Shown here: piece after piece, positions 76 to 35,611 of the stretch | Layout: every line of letters starts with the position of its first letter | Numbering within the stretch: position 1 is the stretch's first letter | Assembly: GCF_002128425.1 (NCBI RefSeq) | Contig: NZ_NESS01000007.1 | Span: 125,555 to 189,554 of the forward strand | Source: Gottfriedia acidiceleris | GTDB lineage: Bacteria; Bacillota; Bacilli; Bacillales; Bacillaceae_G | Length of the DNA stretch: 64,000 nucleotides | Direction of reading: 5' to 3' | Program-made: the position numbers and the translations under genes | Notes under the pieces: generated by a model | Told to the model about the DNA's origin: nothing | Database searches by the model: none | The model's input: only the letters and a program-made list of their open reading frames with translations

Positions 76-330
76 AAAAAAGTCCCTACTGATAATATCA
101 GTAGGGACGAATTATTCGCGGTACCACCCTAGTTGCAGAACTATTCTGCCTCTTAAAATTTGATAACGATCAAACTTGACCGTTTTTCCCTCAGTAAGAA
201 TTAAACTTTACTTCGAAAAAAATAGCTCCAGGACCGAAATTCATCCTTATCTTTGTACTGATTTCCACCAACCATCAGCTCTCTATTACATTGAGATAAG
301 TACTACTTAAATTCCCTTCATTGCTTAAAA
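76..330 (-). promoter_or_regulatory. T-box leader (first of a tandem pair)
   Basis: On the minus strand this region carries the T-box core AGGGTGGTACCGCG (117-130). A perfect 12-bp terminator hairpin follows it (arms 82-93 and 97-108, with a U tract at 76-81). Upstream is a Stem I-like region with AGAGA, a GGTTGGTGG distal loop and flanking CTTATCT/AGATAAG arms. T-boxes sense uncharged tRNA and control aminoacyl-tRNA synthetase, amino-acid biosynthesis or transport genes. By alignment to the usual 'codon then GAA' layout of the specifier loop, the codon may be GAU (Asp), but I hold this loosely. The regulated gene lies beyond the left edge. Confidence 0.93.
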
Positions 331-6234: not shown

Positions 6235-6324
6235 TACGAAAGTTAAAGTATAGATTAGCAATAAATAGAATTTAATGCTACACCATCATTATTGGTTACA
6301 AAAACGAAACCAAGTATACTTTAA

Positions 6325-6393
6325 CCCGTAGTCTAGTTCTTTCATTGGGAACCAGGTAGAAACGCTCAGACCATATTACTGAGCATATACGAG
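6325..6393 (-). promoter_or_regulatory. Purine riboswitch aptamer, guanine class
   Basis: The minus strand shows P1 arms CTCGTA (6388-6393) and TACGGG (6325-6330). It also has the conserved TATATG, AATATGG and TTTCTACC junction elements and the final GACTACGG. The C in GACTAC is the specificity base for guanine/hypoxanthine; adenine switches have T. An additional long pairing, GTTAAAGTATA with TATACTTTAAC, bridges the expression platform. The layout predicts OFF with ligand: P1 forms, and the terminator arm is freed. Confidence 0.93.
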
Positions 6394-6419
6394 TAATGTT
6401 TATGAATGATTACACTGCT

Positions 6420-9487: not shown

Positions 9488-10606
9488 ATGAATCGTAAAT
9501 TAAATATTAGTGGTTTTCAATTCTTTTGTATGATTTTTATGTTTGGGGTCGGTGCTTCTCCACCAGTCGAAATATATACTAGAGCTAAACAAGATGGATG
9601 GATTAGTTTATTAATAGGACTCATTGCAGCTTGTTTAATCTTTGCGGTGTATATTAAGTTATATTCGTTATTTCCTGAACAACCCTTAACAAAATATATT
9701 CAAATCATTTTAGGGAAATATGTCGGGAAAATATTAGCACTAGTATACATCTTATATTTTCTTTATGTTGCTGCACGGGCTTTACGTGATTTTGAGGATT
9801 TATTAACAATCACTCTGTATAATGCTTCTTCTTTAATTTCAATTGGATTAATCATGATGTTATTAATCATGTATGCAATTTCTAAAGGACTAGAAACATT
9901 CGCTCGATCTTGTGAATTTATCTTTATCATGATCATGTTTCTTGTTTTTATATTTATAGGATTTGAAATCATTGCAAATTTAATCAAAATTGATAATTTA
10001 AGACCCGTTTTAGAAAACGGATGGAAACCAATTTTTAAGGCTTTTCCTATTTCTTTAACAGTACCTTTTGGTGAGATCCTGACATTTACAATGATTATGC
10101 CACATTTAAGTAAACAAAATTTAGCAATAAAGGTAGGAATACCGGCCTTATTATTTTCGGGACTTATACTAACCTTATTTGCAGTATTAAATACAGCAAT
10201 ATTAGGCCCATCTGTTATTGAAAGAACAACCTACCCTCTTTTAACAGCAGTTAGTTATATTAATATTGCCGATTTCATTCAAAGATTGGATACTTTCATT
10301 GTTGTAATTGCAGTATGCAATTCCTTTGTAAAAATTACAATTTACTTTTATTGCGCGGTATCTGGAGCTGCAGAGTTATTTAATATAAAGAAAACTGACC
10401 AGCTAGTCTATCCTATTGGCATCATTACCATTGTTACTTCCTTATGGGTAGCTTCTAATTTTCTTGAACATCATAAAGAGGGAATCGATTTAGTACCTTA
10501 TTTGCTTCACATTCCACTTCAAATTATTATTCCGATCAGTTTATTACTAATTCTTCTGTTCCAAGGGAAGCTAAAAAATAATAAAGACGATTTAAATTAC
10601 AATTAA
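9488..10606 (+). CDS. GerAB/YndE family spore germination protein
   Basis: A 372-residue integral membrane protein with about ten predicted helices, of the APC-superfamily germinant-receptor B subunit family. Seen are the N-terminal SGFQFFCMIFMFGVGASPP pattern, the ARALRDFEDLL segment and a C-terminal cytoplasmic tail. In spores, B subunits sit in the inner membrane with A and C subunits and recognise the germinant. No GerA or GerC gene is adjacent, so this is an orphan B subunit, as known for a few Bacillus paralogs. The start follows AAGAAGGA. A terminator follows. Confidence 0.9.
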   Translation: MNRKLNISGFQFFCMIFMFGVGASPPVEIYTRAKQDGWISLLIGLIAACLIFAVYIKLYSLFPEQPLTKYIQIILGKYVGKILALVYILYFLYVAARALRDFEDLLTITLYNASSLISIGLIMMLLIMYAISKGLETFARSCEFIFIMIMFLVFIFIGFEIIANLIKIDNLRPVLENGWKPIFKAFPISLTVPFGEILTFTMIMPHLSKQNLAIKVGIPALLFSGLILTLFAVLNTAILGPSVIERTTYPLLTAVSYINIADFIQRLDTFIVVIAVCNSFVKITIYFYCAVSGAAELFNIKKTDQLVYPIGIITIVTSLWVASNFLEHHKEGIDLVPYLLHIPLQIIIPISLLLILLFQGKLKNNKDDLNYN

Positions 10607-10624
10607 CGGTTAAAAAGGCATAAT

Positions 10625-10655
10625 AAAAAGGCCTCAGTTTCCATTGAGCCTTTTT
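10625..10655 (+). terminator. Terminator of the gerAB homologue
   Basis: AAAAGGC-c-TCA and TGAGCCTTTT pair, with one bulge, and are followed by T. It may also serve the convergent protease gene. Confidence 0.7.
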
Positions 10656-10685
10656 GTTTATTATTTTATATTTTCAAATGTTAGA

Positions 10686-13600
10686 TTACTGAGTAACCGT
10701 TATAGTTTTAGGCGTTGTTGTTACTTTAAAACCGTCTTTTGTAACGCCATCTACAGTAACTGTATATGTGCCATTTGATAGATCTTTATCTGGTGCCCAT
10801 GTTGTCCTAAATGTATGCTCATTTTCGAATGTCGATGAATCGACAAGTTTTCCACTAGCATCTTTAATATTAATCGTCCAGTCCATTCTATTATAACCGA
10901 GAATAGAAATTTTAGCTGGGTTAGATTGGTTTACACCAGTAGATGGAGAAACGCCCCAAGTTACCATTATCATACTTTGTTTATTATAACTTTGATCTCC
11001 CCATGTTGTCCAAGCCATGTTTCCTGCATAATCAATAGATCTAAATACCATACCCTTTGGTTCTGTATTAACTGTCAAAGTCGTTTCGCCAGGTCTTAGT
11101 TCATAAAATGCTCCATTTACATAAATATCGGCAAAGTTAAAGTCGGTTGCATTATCTGTCGCATCAAATGTAATGACATATTTACCGTCTTTTGGAGTTA
11201 CCTTAATATTAGAAATTTTTGGTGCAACTGAATCAACGATCATTGGCATTTTAACGGTTTGTGGTCTAGCGTTTGGATAGGCTAATGTTGTTTTAATTAC
11301 ATAATAGTAAGTACCGTCTGGAACAAAATTACCTGATAAGTCCTTCATATCCCATTGATATAAATTATAACCATAATCTTGATTAAACATCATGTTTTTA
11401 TTAAATTTCCAAGGCTCTCCAGTTCCAGAATACTCACTAAAGTTACCTAGATATCTAAGTTGTTTTCCTTTTGAATTTTCAATAGATATCTCAGCTTTTT
11501 CTAAATTACGTAAAACGGCCATTCCACCAAAAATTCCCTTATCTATATAGTTTGGCGAGAAAGCAATATGGTTTAAATCGAAGTTTACTCCATTGTATCC
11601 TAATGGTGCTCCGCCTTCTGTACTATCATTCCAAAGAGCAGTATAACCTGCGAATGCATCTTTTTCCCAAGCAGGAGCATCGATATTTCTTGGTTCATCC
11701 CATTTACCATTGAAGCCCATATATGGAATTGATAATGGTACTGCTTTCGTTGAGTCCTTTGGTACAAGACGGACAAAGCCCTCAACAAATGCATTTTTTC
11801 TTAACATTCTAGGTAGTCGAATCTCTACATTTAGGTTCTTATCTTGTCCCGATTTTATTTTAAATGTAGCCCCATCTTTATTAGTTACCTTTTCACCATT
11901 TACATAGATTGAAGCACCTTCAATTTTTTTACTACTTAATGTTAAATAATCTTTTGAATCTAAAGTTCCATCACCATCTAGGTCAAATTGCTTCGTTTGA
12001 GTTGCATCTGTTAATAAGTCTACATTAACTGTGTACTCGTACTCTTCTTTCGGTTTCTTTGTTTCAAGTGATTGTACATTTAAGTTAAAGATTGCTCGAT
12101 CGTTCTTAATTTCTTTTAATGCTACTGCCCCAGCTTGTTCAAGTGGCGTATCTTTTCTTGTTACAATAACTGGCGTATTAATTGCATTTTGAATTTGCAT
12201 TAAACCAGAGCCTTGAACTCGTGGTGAATAAGGAACTTCACTATTTGTTTTTGGATCCATTTCGATTTTAGAGGTATTCATTAAAGCAACTTTAGCTTTT
12301 AATACTGTATCTTCTGAATGCATTAATCCTTTTTCATAAAGTGACTGTAATACTAAAGCTGATCCACCTGCAACGTGTGGTGTTGCCATCGATGTACCGC
12401 TCATCACTTGATATTTATTACCTGGAATTGTTGAATAAATATTTCCGCCTGGAGCCGACATCTCAGGTTTAAAATCTAATGTTGGAGTCGTACCCATTGA
12501 TGAAAAATAAGACATCGTATCTTTATCAGGATTATCTACCCAATAATCACCGATATTTTTCATACTTACATATTGACCAGTAGGCATGTTACTCATTTTA
12601 TCTAATAATGCTTGACCGATTGATTTACTTGTTGAAGCAGTCGGTGTTGCAGATCCAGTTACTGGTAAAGTTACATAATCAGGCCAGTTTGATGGCGGTA
12701 TCATAATGATAGCCTTTGCTCCTGCAGCTTTTGCAGTAAATTGAATTGATGAAACAGTACTATAAGAATTTAAAAGCTTTACTACTGCAATGTAATTAGT
12801 TTTACCTTTTGGATAATCAGCAGCCGTTTTACCTTCATTGACATATACCAAATCATAGTTTGTATTTGGTAATAGATTATTAGAGACATTAAAAGCTTGT
12901 CCATATTGACTATGATCTTTGAAAGGTACTTCTAGGCTTCCATCCGAAATTGCATTCATATGAATTTTAGTATTTTCATAGGAAGCAACTGATAATGCGA
13001 ATGGGCTTACACCTGGTGAACCAACCGTTCCAATATCAGGATCATCAGCATATGGTTGTATGGTTGAAGGAACTAATAAAGCCTTCGAACTATATGCTGA
13101 ATTTCCAGCAGCCACTACAACTAGGGTACCTTGTTCTGTCGCCATACGAATTGCTTTTTGAATCGGATCATAATTTTCGTCTACGTAGCCTGCGTCACTA
13201 CCTAAGCTCATGTTTATTACATCTGCGCCCATTTTAACCGCATGTTCGATTCCTGCAATAATATCATCTTCATATGCACCGCCACCATTATCAGAGAATA
13301 CCTTTTCTGCTAATAGCTGTACCCCTGGCGCAATACCAGCAACTCCACCGTTAGAATCGTCACCATTAGCTCCAATTGTTCCCGAAACGTGTGTACCATG
13401 TGAACTACCTTTTGGTCCAGGAATAACATCTGTATCGTTGTCTGCCCAGTCATATCCAGATGGTACTTTGTCTGAATACCACGTTTCGTTTACATCTGTT
13501 GTATCTGCAAACTTTTGAAATTTATCATTTGTCCATTTTTCTTTCGCTTTAGCTACATCTGATAGTGTCATATCTTTATGAGTCCAATCAATACCAGAAT

Positions 13601-29810: not shown

Positions 29811-31022
29811 TTAATTTTCTAACACTAAATTTAAGTGTGGATATTTAGTAGCCCTATATTCTGAAGGGCTACTTTTTATGTATTTTTTAAATATACGACT
29901 AAAGTAATTCGAATCTTGAAAACCAATTCGTGTAGCAATTTCTTGCATAGTTAAATCAGTCATTTCTAAATAAAACATTGATTTTTCAATCCTTATTCTA
30001 TTTAAAAAGTCAATTACACTAGTGCCAATTTCTTTTTTGAATAAGTGACTGAAATGATACTTACTTATGCAGCAATATTGAGCAATTTCTTCCAGTGTTA
30101 TACTAGTTTGATGATTTTCTCTAATATACTTAGTTGCTTTACGAATAATAGGGGTCATCTGATTATTAAATGAATTGGCTATTTGAATCGTTAGCCAGTA
30201 AGCATATTCACAAACCTTTTTTACAAATTTATCATAGCGAATAATATGATATAATTCCTGGATTATTTGAGCGTTTTTTGACATGATGAGTGTTGCATTC
30301 ACACCTGACTCTACAACAACTCTAGAGATTAACATAATTAAATCGACTACCTCAGTCTTAAATACGTCTTCATTTAATCGACATGCATTTGCTACCTTTT
30401 CAAGGAAACTTTTTAATTGATTGACTACCCCTTCTTCATCACCAATTCGTACAAGTGCTAATAATTCAATACGATCCTCGGTTGATCGTGCTCTTAGTGT
30501 ATTTTCTTCCACTGGTTTAATACCACTATGGAATATCAGTTTGTTCCCTTGAAAGAAACGACCTGACATTGACTTTCTAGCCTCTTCAAAAGAGTGGTAT
30601 AACAAATAAGGATCATTATATTTTTTACCTATTCCAATTGAAACTGTAATCTGAACCTTGTCTAATGAATTTTGAATTTCTTCTGCCATTCTATAAATCT
30701 TTTTATTGAACTCGATTTCACTATCTATATCATCTAGCTCAATTAGAAGTGCAAGCACACCTTCTTCTACCCAGTTCCATAAATAAGAAACTCCGATCGT
30801 CTGATCAATTTGATTTATTAGTTTATGGCCAATTTCTTGTTTCCACTGTATTGGGTTTTCTGCTGCTAAATCAGGATAGCGATCAATTGATATGACCATT
30901 ACAACATTTGGATTAGTATTAATGCCACATCTTTCCTGAACTTCATCAAAAGTTCCTATATGGACGAGTGTACCAGAGAGTAACAAATTTGAAAAAGCTG
31001 ATTGAGTAGCATTTCGATTCAT
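29811..31022 (-). CDS. AraC-family regulator with GGDEF-like sensor domain
   Basis: 403 residues. The C-terminal 100 residues are an AraC/XylS double helix-turn-helix (ITLEEIAQYCCISKYHFSHLFKKEIG and LTMQEIATRIGFQDSNYFSRIFKKY). The N-terminal part includes VMVISIDRYPD and QITVSIGIGKKYNDPYLLYHSFEEARKSM, a degenerate GGDEF-like fold seen in YesN-type regulators. No phospho-receiver domain is evident. It lies just downstream of the MFS-lyase operon, separated by a terminator, and likely controls it. AAGGAG precedes the ATG. Confidence 0.88.
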   Translation of the reverse strand: MNRNATQSAFSNLLLSGTLVHIGTFDEVQERCGINTNPNVVMVISIDRYPDLAAENPIQWKQEIGHKLINQIDQTIGVSYLWNWVEEGVLALLIELDDIDSEIEFNKKIYRMAEEIQNSLDKVQITVSIGIGKKYNDPYLLYHSFEEARKSMSGRFFQGNKLIFHSGIKPVEENTLRARSTEDRIELLALVRIGDEEGVVNQLKSFLEKVANACRLNEDVFKTEVVDLIMLISRVVVESGVNATLIMSKNAQIIQELYHIIRYDKFVKKVCEYAYWLTIQIANSFNNQMTPIIRKATKYIRENHQTSITLEEIAQYCCISKYHFSHLFKKEIGTSVIDFLNRIRIEKSMFYLEMTDLTMQEIATRIGFQDSNYFSRIFKKYIKSSPSEYRATKYPHLNLVLEN

Positions 31023-31146: not shown

Positions 31147-32706
31147 TCATAATTCCATGACCCCTATTTTCTCTTCAACAAGTTCAACAATATCTCCATC
31201 ATGAATTTGATTACGAATTGTTTCTATATCATGATAAAAATAGCGATCCTCTTCAACTGCTGGAACTTGATTTCTAATTAACTGATATACACTTGCCGTT
31301 ACCGGTGACGGTTTTAGTGAATCATGGAATTCTAGTGCTTGAGTGGAAACCATTAGTTCGATTGCTAAAATATGTTCAAGTTTTTTTGAAATCTGATAAG
31401 CTTTCCTAGCTGCGAAATAAGCAAAGCTAACAACATCCTCTTGATTTGCACATGTAGATGTATTATCAATCGTTGCGGGATGGGATAGTACTCTTATTTC
31501 ATTAAGCAATCCAGCTGCAGTATATTGTGGAATCATATATCCATTGTTTAATCCAGGATTTACAACTAAGAAATTAGGAAGTTCACTTACATGGAAATTC
31601 ACTAATCGATCGATACGACGCTCTGCAATCTTAGCTAAATTCGCCATACCAATACAAATAGTATCCGCATAAATTCCAACAAATGAAGCATCAAAATTTC
31701 CACCCATTAATGCGGTGCCATCTTCTTCCCCTGGCCAAATAATCGGATTATCACTTGAAGACTTCATTTCATTCTTAACATTTTCCAATGCATTTTTAAA
31801 TACTTTTTTTACTGCACCATGTACTTGTGGTATACATCTTAAGCTAAGTGCATCTTGTAAGCGATAGTTTTTATACTTCTCTGCTATCTCACTTCCATCT
31901 AAAATCTTGGAAACAATTCTAGCTGTATTCATTTGTTCTTCATGTTTTTTTACTGAGTGTAGACGAGGATCTAAAGCTTTTATCGTGCCTTTAAGCGCTT
32001 CTAATGACATGGCACCACTGATATCTGCCGTTTTTACAGCTTGAATAGCATTATATATCGAGAGTATAGCGAATGCTGTTACTGAAGTAGTACCATTTAA
32101 TAGTGCTAATCCTTCTTTACATTCAAATGTTACTGATTTTAAGCCTGCACGCTCCAATGCTTCATGCCCATTTAGAAGCTCGTCTTTGTACCAAGCTTTT
32201 CCCTCACCCATTAAAACCAGGGCCATATGCGCTTCGGGAGATAAATATGCTACCGATCCCTCACCAGGAACAAATGGTAAAATATCGTTGTTAAGAAGAG
32301 CAGCAATTAGCTCTAACACTTCAAATCTAACTCCTGAATAGCCTTGCCCTATATTATTTAGGATCATTAATTGGATTGCTCTTACTACTTCTTTTTCAAG
32401 AGGCTCTCCTACAGAAACAGCATGAGATCGGACAATATTTCTCTGAAGAGCCTGAGCATCTTCCTTTGAAATAATTTCTGTTACATTGCTTCCAAACCCT
32501 GTAGTTACGCCATACACTGCTCTTTCTTCTTCAAGAAATTTTTCAACTAGATTTCGAGAAGTATTTATTCTTAGAAAGTAGTTTTCTGAAAACGATACTT
32601 TTGCACCATAACATGCAACAGCAATCACTTCATTAACTGATAACTCATGATCTCCAAGAATAACCTCATTTATATTTTTTGGATGAATTAAATCGTTTTT
32701 GGTCAT
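31147..32706 (-). CDS. Histidine/aromatic ammonia-lyase homologue lacking the MIO triad
   Basis: 519 residues from ATG 32706 (AGAGGTG upstream). The fold of HutH/PAL is clear: Tyr65 in VYGVTTGFGS, Asn204 in EGLALLNGTT, SSSDNPI, GGNFD and ANQED. But in the electrophile loop, where HutH reads GSVGASGDLAP, this protein reads GSVAYLSPEAH (150-160): three residues shorter, with no Ala-Ser-Gly to cyclise into MIO. The motif QDPYSLRC is QDALSLRC (284-291), losing the catalytic Tyr. Both were read directly from the DNA. It cannot use the standard mechanism; it may be a repurposed lyase, mutase or isomerase. It is co-transcribed with the upstream MFS gene (32-bp gap). Confidence 0.9.
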   Translation of the reverse strand: MTKNDLIHPKNINEVILGDHELSVNEVIAVACYGAKVSFSENYFLRINTSRNLVEKFLEEERAVYGVTTGFGSNVTEIISKEDAQALQRNIVRSHAVSVGEPLEKEVVRAIQLMILNNIGQGYSGVRFEVLELIAALLNNDILPFVPGEGSVAYLSPEAHMALVLMGEGKAWYKDELLNGHEALERAGLKSVTFECKEGLALLNGTTSVTAFAILSIYNAIQAVKTADISGAMSLEALKGTIKALDPRLHSVKKHEEQMNTARIVSKILDGSEIAEKYKNYRLQDALSLRCIPQVHGAVKKVFKNALENVKNEMKSSSDNPIIWPGEEDGTALMGGNFDASFVGIYADTICIGMANLAKIAERRIDRLVNFHVSELPNFLVVNPGLNNGYMIPQYTAAGLLNEIRVLSHPATIDNTSTCANQEDVVSFAYFAARKAYQISKKLEHILAIELMVSTQALEFHDSLKPSPVTASVYQLIRNQVPAVEEDRYFYHDIETIRNQIHDGDIVELVEEKIGVMEL

Positions 32707-32738
32707 CAAAAACACCTCTTTACTATGAATGTATCAGC

Positions 32739-34103
32739 TTAACTCGTAACTGATTGTTTATTTGTCTCAACTAGATCATCTTCAAGTAATGGATTACTAG
32801 CTTCGTTTAATGAAAGTGATTTTGTCTCTGGAGCCCAAGCAATCGAAACAATTGTACCAATAAATAGAATAATCGACATTCCAATCATAGAAGGTGCCAT
32901 CCCCATTGAGCTAACGCTTATCGGTAAAAGGAATGTCCCAATAGCTGAGCCTATTCGACTAACTGCTGTCGTCAAGCCAACCCCAGTACCACGAACCTCG
33001 GTAGGAAATAGTTCAGCAGGATACACTAATGTTAAATTGGAAGCTGCCGACATTACAAATGTAAAGATTGCAAACACAATAATTGCGATTGTATGTAGAC
33101 CTTGTGGTAAAACTGTTAATGCGAATAATGAAATTGTTAAAATAATAAATGTATTAATTGTAAACCCTCTACGAGTTAACTTTTCAGTACACCAAACACC
33201 AGCTAACGCCCCTACTAGAAGGAACAAGTTTAGAACCATGTCTACACCAAACGTTTCTTCAAATCCCATTTTACTTAAAATAGTTGGTAGGAATGTATAG
33301 ATTGCGAAATACGGAACTACCTGACACATATAAAAAAGTGATCCGAATGTTGTACGTTTCCAAAGCTGCTTATTGAATAAGTCTGTCATTTTGTATGCAT
33401 GTTTAGAATGAGCGTCAACTGTTTCATCCATTACAGCATTTTCACCAATATACTTTCTTACAATAGCACGTGCTTCTTCAACACGCCCCATCTTTAATAA
33501 CCAACGTGGAGACTCCGGCGTACCAAAACGTAAAAGTAAGACAATTAAACCAGGAAGTGCAGCACTCACTAACATCCAACGCCATGCATCTGGCCCTGTT
33601 TTTTCCAAGTAATAACCAACTAAATTAGAAGCTACATATCCAACTGTCCATAAAACGTTTAATGAAGATAATAACATTCCTCTATACTTTCTAGGTGCAA
33701 ACTCAGCTAGTAAAGTAGAACCTACGGCATAATCTCCTCCGAGTGCAACACCGATTAAAATCCTTAAGGCAAAAAGTGTATATGGATCGTGAACAAAAAA
33801 CTGCAGGGCAGATGCGATTGTAATAATAACAAAGTTTGCTAAATAGATTTTCTGCCTACCAATACGATCTGATAATCCGCCAAGAAACAAACTACCGAAA
33901 AAAAGTCCGATTAATGCGGAACTACCGATTAATCCTTCCCATACAGAATTTAATTTCATCTGTGGACCTAGGAGTGAAAGTGCCATGCCTATAATTCCTA
34001 AAGCATAACCATCCGAAAAATTCGATCCAAAAGTAAGTGCCGTAATCCGAATATGGAATTTATTAAGCGGTGCATCGTCCATCATAAATTTTTTATCCTT
34101 CAA
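32739..34103 (-). CDS. MFS metabolite:H+ symporter (sugar-porter/AAHS-like)
   Basis: 454 residues with 12 helices. Motifs are GGLSDRIGRQKIY between helices 2 and 3, ALGGDYAVGSTLLAEFAPRKYRG between helices 4 and 5, PESPRWLLKMGR after helix 6, and PAELFPTEVRGTGVG in the second half. This is the pattern of NiaP/AAHS importers of carboxylated aromatic compounds and vitamins. The start is TTG with GGGGG upstream. As first gene of the operon it probably imports the substrate, or a precursor, of the unusual lyase. Confidence 0.87.
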   Translation of the reverse strand: MKDKKFMMDDAPLNKFHIRITALTFGSNFSDGYALGIIGMALSLLGPQMKLNSVWEGLIGSSALIGLFFGSLFLGGLSDRIGRQKIYLANFVIITIASALQFFVHDPYTLFALRILIGVALGGDYAVGSTLLAEFAPRKYRGMLLSSLNVLWTVGYVASNLVGYYLEKTGPDAWRWMLVSAALPGLIVLLLRFGTPESPRWLLKMGRVEEARAIVRKYIGENAVMDETVDAHSKHAYKMTDLFNKQLWKRTTFGSLFYMCQVVPYFAIYTFLPTILSKMGFEETFGVDMVLNLFLLVGALAGVWCTEKLTRRGFTINTFIILTISLFALTVLPQGLHTIAIIVFAIFTFVMSAASNLTLVYPAELFPTEVRGTGVGLTTAVSRIGSAIGTFLLPISVSSMGMAPSMIGMSIILFIGTIVSIAWAPETKSLSLNEASNPLLEDDLVETNKQSVTS

Positions 34104-34462
34104 AAGAATTCCCCCTTTTTTGACTTTTCAGATAAATTAAATTATAAAAAATAGTAAGTAATAAAATAACTACTTACTTAAACGTACCTAAAGCGCTTCC
34201 AAAAATTTTCATCATTTTTAATAAATTATAATTATTACTCACCAAATTATCTCTAGATAAAGTTTCGGATTACTAGCACAATCTTGCTGAAATGTTAAGT
34301 CCAGGGGATTAGGGAATCATGAGCATAATGAAGGTAAGAGGAAAAAAATTCAAAAGAATAAGAGATAGTTTTTTGGCTATCTCTCAGAACATAACGTATA
34401 TATTGGTTTATTTGCAGTTTTCCTGATTTTTATTGCAGATTTGACTTATGTAATCCTCAAAT
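34104..34462. other. 359-bp intergenic region
   Basis: Holds the promoter region above on the left. On the right is a hairpin AGAGATAG/CTATCTCT (34361-34384), which probably ends the upstream oxidase transcript. I see nothing coding. Confidence 0.55.
34141..34202 (-). promoter_or_regulatory. Activator-type promoter with inverted repeat and cre-like element
   Basis: The minus strand has a perfect TATAAT (34141-34146) but a poor -35 (TTATTT, 17 bp upstream). The -35 lies inside an inverted repeat, AGTAAGTA/TACTTACT (34153-34178). Just upstream is TTGGAAGCGCTTTAGG (about 34187-34202), which matches 11 of 14 cre positions. A strong -10 with a weak -35 and a dyad suggests dependence on an activator, plausibly the AraC-type protein. 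Confidence 0.55.
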
Positions 34463-35611
34463 TTACAATCTCTTGCTTAAAAAACGATTTAATGAAAACA
34501 TACTCAAATCAAAAGCAGTTTTCTGTTTTGTTACTAGATCAGCAATAATCTCACCTACAACACTTGCAAACTTAAAGCCATGGCCAGAGAAACCTGTGGC
34601 AATAATTAAATTTTCGTATTCTGGATGCTGATCAATAATGAAGTGCTCATCCGGTGTCATTGTATATAAACATGTTTTACCTTTTACTAATCTACCATTT
34701 GCAAGCGGCATATACTCACTTAAGAAATTTCTCAGATCTGTTTCATCTTCAATGAACTCTCCAAATTCTCTGTTAAATTGATCTGGATCTATAATTTGTC
34801 CTCCATCATGTCGTCCAATTTTCAATCCGCTATTATGAAGAGTTGGAAAACCGTAATAATGTCGATCAATTAGATCAATTGTAAATGCTGGTAGCGAACT
34901 AGAATCGTATAGCTCCTTATCACATTCAAACCAACCAACTGTTTTACGAGTAGGTTTTAGAGGAATATGTAACCCAGCCTTTTCAAGTATTTTCCCTGAC
35001 CAAGCGCCTGCACAAACTACAATTTTATCTGCTGAATAAATAGAATCTTTTGTACGCACTTGTGTCTTATTAGAGTCTACTTCAATATCCACAACAGGCG
35101 ATTTTGTTTTAAGAGTACTACCTTCCTTAACATATAGTTCTCTATATGCTCGAATACACTCTTCACTGAAAAGAATTCCGGAAGATGTTTCTAAACAACC
35201 AATAAATCCTTCCGGTAAACATAAGCCGGGCCATCTTGCATTGATCTCATTATAATCCATTATTTCAAGCGGCAATGAAAATTCCTTTGCACTATTTATT
35301 ACCTCATTTGTAAAAGTCGATCCAGATGCACCAGCACATAAAACGCCTGTTCTCGAGAATAATTGTTTTCCAGACAATTGTTCTAACTCTTCCCATAATG
35401 TTTGTGCCCGTAATGCTAAAGGTACGTATTCTCTACTTTCTCCATATGCATGACGAATGATTCTAGTATCGCCGTGATGGCTACCAAAGCTATGTGGTGG
35501 ATCAAAAGAATCTATTAATAATATTTTCTGATTTCCTTTTGATAAATAGTATCCTGCTGCCATTCCCATAGAGCCCGCTCCAACAATAATTACATCATAG
35601 TGATTATTCAA
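34463..35611 (-). CDS. Monomeric sarcosine / N-methyl-amino-acid oxidase family flavoenzyme
   Basis: 382 residues. The FAD-binding DAO fold shows VIIVGAGSMGMAAGYYL at the N-terminus and then SHHGDTRIIRHAYGE, the flavin-loop signature of MSOX/MTOX. The Cys in GKTCLYTMTPDEHFIID is the residue that binds FAD covalently. The C-terminal ATGFSGHGFKFA is conserved. These enzymes oxidise N-methyl amino acids (sarcosine, N-methyltryptophan) or pipecolate, giving imine and H2O2. The start is TTG 35611 with AAGGAG nine bases upstream. It lies upstream of the MFS-lyase operon, with a separate hairpin, and may belong to the same pathway. Confidence 0.9.
   Translation of the reverse strand: MNNHYDVIIVGAGSMGMAAGYYLSKGNQKILLIDSFDPPHSFGSHHGDTRIIRHAYGESREYVPLALRAQTLWEELEQLSGKQLFSRTGVLCAGASGSTFTNEVINSAKEFSLPLEIMDYNEINARWPGLCLPEGFIGCLETSSGILFSEECIRAYRELYVKEGSTLKTKSPVVDIEVDSNKTQVRTKDSIYSADKIVVCAGAWSGKILEKAGLHIPLKPTRKTVGWFECDKELYDSSSLPAFTIDLIDRHYYGFPTLHNSGLKIGRHDGGQIIDPDQFNREFGEFIEDETDLRNFLSEYMPLANGRLVKGKTCLYTMTPDEHFIIDQHPEYENLIIATGFSGHGFKFASVVGEIIADLVTKQKTAFDLSMFSLNRFLSKRL

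Follow-up and report, generated by a model that had tools for sequence, protein, structure and literature searches.

A window of 64,000 bp from Gottfriedia acidiceleris (positions 125,555 to 189,554 of contig NZ_NESS01000007.1; by the window we mean this whole stretch) contains, in order along the minus strand, genes for a flavin adenine dinucleotide (FAD) oxidase, a transporter of the major facilitator superfamily (MFS), a relative of histidine ammonia-lyase (HAL, the HutH protein) and an AraC-family regulator, flanked by murC and a short-chain dehydrogenase/reductase (SDR) gene (Table 1). The HAL relative, here called the lyase, is our subject: it lacks the Ala-Ser-Gly triad from which HALs form their 4-methylideneimidazole-5-one (MIO) electrophile. 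Checking of the open reading frames returned the same coordinates for the lyase, the MFS transporter and the FAD oxidase as a preliminary description of this DNA made from the letters alone. The GTG start listed for the lyase may be too early, and AGAGGTG, upstream of the alternative ATG, resembles a ribosome site.

Table 1 Genes of the four-gene module and the electrophile-loop region of the lyase (positions in the window)
Feature	Position	Strand	Remarks
AraC-family regulator with GGDEF-like domain	29811..31022	-	Pfam HTH_18, HTH_AraC, GGDEF_2; in all 7 genomes with the module
MIO-less HAL-fold lyase	31147..32715	-	522 aa from GTG 32715; 519 aa if ATG 32706 is the start
Electrophile-loop region, residues 149-160, around GEGSVAYLSPEA	32236..32271 (approximate, from residue numbers)	-	Ala-Ser-Gly deleted; Tyr157 invariant
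MFS transporter, probable substrate importer	32739..34103	-	Pfam Sugar_tr (215 bits), MFS_1
FAD oxidase, monomeric sarcosine oxidase / N-methyltryptophan oxidase family	34463..35611	-	469 bits to 1ZOV

The lyase gene encodes a full-length protein with a HAL fold. It scores 542.8 bits on the NCBIfam hutH model (cut-off 539.15), and 344–349 bits to HALs compared to 171 bits to ergothionase (6S7J). With its AlphaFold model (mean pLDDT 91.3), Foldseek placed a HAL at first rank, and structure comparison gave Z 44.5 to the Pseudomonas putida HAL (1B8F) and Z 42.3 to 6S7J; the top rows (Z 45.4–44), HALs and tyrosine aminomutases among them, are tied, as is the 1B8F match, which lies within 1 Z of other MIO enzymes. 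Alignment to HAL indicated that the electrophile loop of the lyase, GEGSVAYLSPEAHM, is exactly three residues shorter than that of HAL, the Ala-Ser-Gly region aligning as SVAY---L, and therefore that MIO cannot form. The second active-site motif reads QDALSLR, with Leu at the position of Tyr280, and the lyase retains Tyr53, His83, Asn195, Gln277, Arg283, Met382 and Glu414 (P. putida HAL numbering). In HAL, Tyr53, His83, Asn195, Gln277, Tyr280, Arg283 and Glu414 are pocket residues, and His83, Met382 and Glu414 are linked to imidazole. With HutH (TIGR01225; 1B8F, 7TQR) the lyase shares the fold, approximately 37–38% identity, most pocket residues and, in many of its relatives, a hut neighborhood, but it has no Ala-Ser-Gly or MIO, has a new Tyr157, has lost Tyr280 and coexists with an ordinary HutH.

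In 17 aligned MIO-less proteins the three-residue deletion and the Tyr157 preceding it are invariant, as are Tyr53, His83, Gln277, Arg283, Met382 and Glu414, and HAL position 386 is Tyr in all 17. Position 280 is Leu in 13, Ile in one and Tyr in three, and the Asn195 (LLNG) position is Asn in nine, Ser in seven and Gly in one; within the genus of the window Asn occurs in 3/7 copies and Ser in 4/7, which is to say in 4/6 orthologs of the window copy. Two contigs each carry a pair of neighboring MIO-less lyases, with Leu and Tyr at position 280 in one pair (Oscillospiraceae, L033 6180-9290) and Ile and Leu in the other (Faecalimicrobium, L043 9977-15287). The preliminary description had reported a loop three residues short and lacking Ala-Ser-Gly, and a second motif without the catalytic Tyr, both of which the alignment bears out. 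Of the residues it had listed as kept, the first-motif Tyr, the Arg and the Glu are invariant in all 17 proteins, whereas the Asn is kept in the window protein but not across the family (9/17).

The lyase is present in 7/13 genomes of the genus, the six other copies being 86–95% identical to that of the window, and its mean dN/dS within the genus is 0.094 (21 pairs, range 0.065–0.184). This value and the seven intact copies rule out a decaying pseudogene, and the occurrence of the identical deletion in many genomes speaks strongly against a sequencing error. The suggestions that the pocket is not simply decaying and that a HAL scaffold has been repurposed thus find support in the purifying selection on the gene, and a triad hidden by faulty sequencing, which would have undone the preliminary description, is very unlikely given the same deletion in all seven genus copies. 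A contig search whose best 80 matches yielded 79 loci identified the exact deletion in seven (L031–L035, L037 and L043) and an Ala-Ser-Gly-type loop in 72 (62 ASG, 8 SSG, 1 SCG and 1 CSG), the latter serving as our control set. The deletion is found too in five plasmid loci that we inspected (L027, L028, L029, L030 and L112). Among 398 sampled Bacilli genomes 221 have some match to the lyase, 14 of them (own genome included) at 716 bits or more; the deletion is present in 14/14, the next match scores 636 bits, and Ala-Ser-Gly is present in all 16 loci checked at this score and below. Each of the 14 genomes contains at least one further HAL-family match and therefore needs no duplicate for plain histidine.

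Phylogenetic analysis indicated that the MIO-less proteins belong together. In a tree of 88 rows from which the loop and Tyr280 columns had been removed, a single branch (SH-aLRT 95) separates the 30 MIO-less rows from 56 MIO-type rows, and a first tree (103 rows, these columns included, eleven near-copies of the ordinary HutH from the window's family excluded) gave the same split at SH-aLRT 96. Between the first tree and the second, L035 and 27 other rows (25 Ala-Ser-Gly, 2 resembling phenylalanine ammonia-lyase) were removed and 13 MIO-less rows added; L035, although entered in the first tree as Ala-Ser-Gly type, was placed inside the MIO-less clade. The search of genomes for the loop variant and its neighbors that the preliminary description had proposed thus led to a conserved clade, 30 proteins of which share the same three-residue deletion, with members in Bacillota, Actinomycetota and proteobacteria. 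Ergothionase is placed apart from this clade on a very long branch, and a joint clade of the two is not rejected (approximately unbiased (AU) test, p 0.54; two ergothionase-type rows, both on long branches). The L035 lyase itself (Bacillus sp. SD075, 10001-11557; open frame 455 aa) contains one in-frame stop, reflecting either decay or a sequencing error, and we count it among the related loci below. Plasmid-borne MIO-less lyases occur in Klebsiella quasipneumoniae (L112 1-12328), Agrobacterium (L029), Rhizobium (L030) and Priestia (L028); among 60 matches listed, 11 are Klebsiella plasmids with approximately 60% identity to the Agrobacterium copy, the loop having been checked for L112.

The preliminary description had placed the lyase alongside an importer, an N-methyl-amino-acid-oxidase-type flavoenzyme and an AraC regulator, and the genus bears this out: gene order and place are identical in the other six lyase-bearing genomes, and all four genes are missing from that place in the six genomes without it. 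In one of these (G006; L141 2585-3395) the oxidase is cut down to its first 75 residues, which abut the last 192 of the AraC regulator, and the MFS and lyase genes are gone, the scar of one deletion by which the module was lost. A second (G015) retains a short piece of AraC split over two frames, and the other four have no trace of the module at the site, the SDR side also being different in G007. A genome-wide search of the six genomes for the oxidase, the one of the oxidase, MFS and AraC genes so searched, found no other close copy. The oxidase scores 324 bits to N-methyl-L-tryptophan oxidase 2UZZ in addition to its match to sarcosine oxidase 1ZOV, and on NCBIfam it scores 460 bits as N-methyl-L-tryptophan oxidase (cut-off 257) and 425 bits on soxA_mon, missing that cut-off (480). 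It shares SHHGDTRIIRHAYGE, CxYT and GFSGHGFKF motifs with these enzymes and differs from them in the company of a MIO-less lyase. On NCBIfam the MFS transporter comes closest to subfamilies for aromatic acid/H+ symport and for cation transport, and it falls well short of the cut-off with each.

To relatives outside the genus we applied a comparison of 25 MIO-less loci with the 72 MIO-type loci, the Pfam and NCBIfam scans of neighbors being limited to selected genes (ten rows each). Both hutU and hutI lie within 10 kb of the lyase in 16/25 MIO-less loci. The clusters comprise an AraC-type regulator, hutU, hutI, MFS, lyase and FAD oxidase genes in Peribacillus; AraC, one other gene, OpuAC-type ABC genes, lyase, hutU, hutI and hutG in Paenibacillus eucommiae; hutU, hutI, an agmatinase-family (hutG-like) gene, two MFS genes and the lyase on the Priestia plasmid; hutI, a permease gene, hutU, ABC genes, lyase, hutD, hutC and hutF on the Klebsiella plasmid; and hutI-, hutF- and hutU-like genes, lyase and MFS on a Microbacteriaceae contig. 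No second, MIO-type hutH was found within the searched stretch in 15/16 of the hut-linked loci; in G069 a further HAL-family match lies approximately 10 kb from the lyase, just outside that stretch. In L179 a MIO-less lyase and an ordinary Ala-Ser-Gly HutH share one cluster with hutU, hutI and hutG, an arrangement that would suit a single pathway supplied by both histidine and a histidine derivative. Genes for a coenzyme A (CoA) transferase, a 3-hydroxyacyl-CoA dehydrogenase and an enoyl-CoA hydratase come after the lyase on the plasmids of Agrobacterium and Rhizobium.

The urocanases of these clusters bear on the product of the lyase. The Peribacillus, Paenibacillus, Klebsiella and Microbacteriaceae enzymes reach 908–1020 bits on hutU (cut-off 375) but do not exceed 713 on the thiourocanate hydratase model (cut-off 930) or 736 on the S-methyl-thiourocanate hydratase model (cut-off 880; the two thiourocanate-type models are NF058530 and NF058531), and none of the five cluster urocanases scanned qualifies as a thiourocanate-type hydratase (635–736 bits). 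The HutUs of the Bacillota clusters are 75–78% identical to the HutU of the own-genome hut operon, and that of Klebsiella is 64% identical to the latter and 76% to the HutU beside Vibrio HutH. Given that the cluster urocanases scanned are ordinary HutUs, the product of the MIO-less lyase is most probably urocanate, and its substrate would then be a histidine whose α-nitrogen leaves without MIO. Two loci contain, besides a HutU 84% identical to that of Priestia, a second HutU-like gene (53%) adjoining the lyase (L184 10500-12263; L185 6821-8584); the extra L184 copy passes the hutU model at 752 bits, and these divergent proteins may act on a modified urocanate.

Transporters distinguish the MIO-less loci from the controls. 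An MFS transporter like that of the window is found in 12/25 (64–70% identical in 11, 52% in the twelfth), compared to 0/72 MIO-type loci; BCCT transporters are found in 5/25 and OpuAC proteins in 6/25, compared to 0/72 for either, and a more sensitive profile search for BCCT and OpuAC around the 72 loci again found none. For BCCT or OpuAC (11/25 versus 0/72) the Fisher p of 4e-8 is overstated, the loci being related and the profiles coming from the MIO-less loci. Pfam confirmed BCCT in L187–L189 and OpuAC in L029, L037, L112 and L184. The three sets do not overlap and together account for 23/25 loci; the remaining two (L027 and L043) have an SSF symporter, the control counts covering MFS, BCCT and OpuAC. 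The putative transporters beside several clade members fall in the same Pfam families as ProX/OpuC/EgtUC and BCCT. With betaine-type transporters beside the relatives, trimethylated histidine, that is hercynine, is the natural candidate substrate.

We therefore consider it probable, if by no wide measure, that the MIO-less protein is a cofactor-less lyase of hercynine (histidine betaine, N-alpha-trimethyl-L-histidine). Hercynine would be imported through BCCT, OpuAC or MFS systems, the lyase would eliminate trimethylamine from it to give urocanate, and urocanate would enter the ordinary Hut pathway (HutU/HutI/HutG). Histidine needs the MIO electrophile for departure of its amino group; the trimethylammonium group would be a permanently cationic leaving group, and for this reason the MIO loop could be deleted, a cation pocket perhaps forming around Tyr157. 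Our guess is that the flavin oxidase removes methyl groups from mono- or dimethyl-histidine, or from some other N-methyl amino acid imported alongside. In the own genome, urocanate would pass to a hut operon on another contig, where an ordinary Ala-Ser-Gly HutH, 38% identical to the lyase, lies beside relatives of HutU, HutI and HutG. No hercynine lyase was found in literature titles and abstract openings, with most subscription journals outside that coverage, and no NCBIfam model for an ergothionase or a hercynine lyase matched the window protein or the ergothionase-like protein described below.

HAL-fold enzymes without Ala-Ser-Gly are already known. Ergothionase has been reported to have no MIO (PMC13405746) and to yield thiolurocanic acid and trimethylamine (PMC7653990). 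The enzyme of Treponema denticola (6S7J) shares with the lyase the HAL fold without Ala-Ser-Gly, Leu at the position of Tyr280, and Y53, H83, Q277, R283 and E414, but it is 26–27% identical, its loop (SSIGE-GDI) has a gap of one residue and not three, and it has Lys (its K384) at HAL position 386, where the 17 aligned MIO-less proteins have Tyr. The MIO-less branch whose existence the preliminary description had surmised is real, and the new chemistry it had proposed needs qualification, the substrate being different and the type of elimination most likely an ergothionase-like loss of trimethylamine that has precedent. A further HAL-fold protein, on Sinorhizobium meliloti pSYMA (L111 5992-7566; loop GSVGQADM, second motif QDPLSFR), is ergothionase-like, with 299 bits to 6S7J, and is far from every NCBIfam cut-off. 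That the lyase itself works on ergothioneine, or on its S-methyl or sulfonate form, with thiourocanate-type products, seems to us unlikely. Such an enzyme would join the known MIO-less HAL-fold enzyme in its Leu at 280 and its possible joint clade, and the L184 cluster has a substrate-binding protein related to EgtUC-like binding proteins (166 bits); the sequence scores, which are higher to HALs, the loop gap, the Tyr at 386 in 17/17 and scanned cluster partners that are urocanate and not thiourocanate hydratases argue against it. We accordingly rejected plain ergothionase, with which a shared origin remains compatible (AU p 0.54).

Comparably unlikely is a substrate in which the α-nitrogen of histidine is substituted in another way, N-methyl- and N,N-dimethyl-histidine being examples, and on which the flavin oxidase would act as well. 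The sarcosine-oxidase-like enzyme of the genus module speaks for such a substrate, an FAD oxidase lying near the lyase in 5/25 MIO-less loci compared to 1/72 controls, but 20/25 related loci lack it, the BCCT and OpuAC families of the relatives are named for quaternary ammonium compounds, and on general chemical grounds a mono- or dimethylamine leaving group lacks a permanent positive charge. Aromatic betaines of other kinds, such as those of tryptophan or tyrosine, with the hut linkage secondary in some members, would suit the three CoA-type enzymes encoded in the Agrobacterium and Rhizobium clusters, which could handle an arylacrylate. We regard them as less likely still, for hutU and hutI adjoin 16/25 related loci and the HAL-type His83, Met382 and Glu414, which are linked to imidazole, are kept in 17/17. 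Least likely of all is a HAL relative that has lost catalysis or serves in regulation: MIO is lost and Tyr280 is lost in 14/17, yet Tyr53, Arg283 and Glu414 are invariant, the mean dN/dS is 0.094, and, the G069 match at approximately 10 kb aside, 15/16 hut-linked loci have no other hutH in the searched stretch.

Several observations weigh against hercynine as the substrate. Because hutU is about as common near MIO-type HALs (38/72, Fisher p 0.36) as near the MIO-less lyases, its linkage speaks for the product only, and we dropped it as evidence on the substrate. The 25 loci do not count as independent cases, and MIO-less loci supplied the transporter profiles. OpuAC-type systems can carry histidine, and on an Agrobacterium plasmid outside the control set (H91) a gene known by annotation as hutH lies beside a betaine/proline-type ABC gene. 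Tyr280 is retained in 3/17 MIO-less proteins. In Agrobacterium (L029 9553-12442) and Rhizobium (L030 9505-12439) the CoA-type genes stand in place of hutU; the gene set suggests a CoA route for an acrylate product, and the substrate or the route may be different in this branch. The locus of the window genus has an MFS gene instead of hut genes, BCCT or OpuAC, and the substrate of the window lyase is inferred through relatives at approximately 65–73% identity.

Elsewhere in the window, Rfam returned two matches, both above gathering score and both far from the module: a T-box leader (100-330, minus strand) and a purine riboswitch (6309-6412, minus strand). A scan for promoters and terminators gave counts at chance level (26 found versus 26.1 expected, and 4 versus 3.2).

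We hold it evenly balanced whether the clade represents a second type of HAL-fold enzyme that does without MIO, with a loop of its own, serving a dedicated and unnamed hercynine pathway spread over several phyla and plasmids and filed as HAL, the MIO loop perhaps having been lost independently of ergothionase. For the record, the window protein and two tested relatives pass the NCBI HutH model (a third misses it) though none can form MIO, and plasmid copies are annotated as HAL although they have no MIO-forming triad; the motif GS[VL][GA]YL, found where HAL has its Ala-Ser-Gly loop, tells the MIO-less clade from HAL. If hercynine is indeed the substrate, histidine betaine, the direct precursor of ergothioneine, would have a bacterial route into central metabolism, trimethylamine would have an additional source, and the MIO cofactor would be dispensable once a substrate brings its own leaving group.

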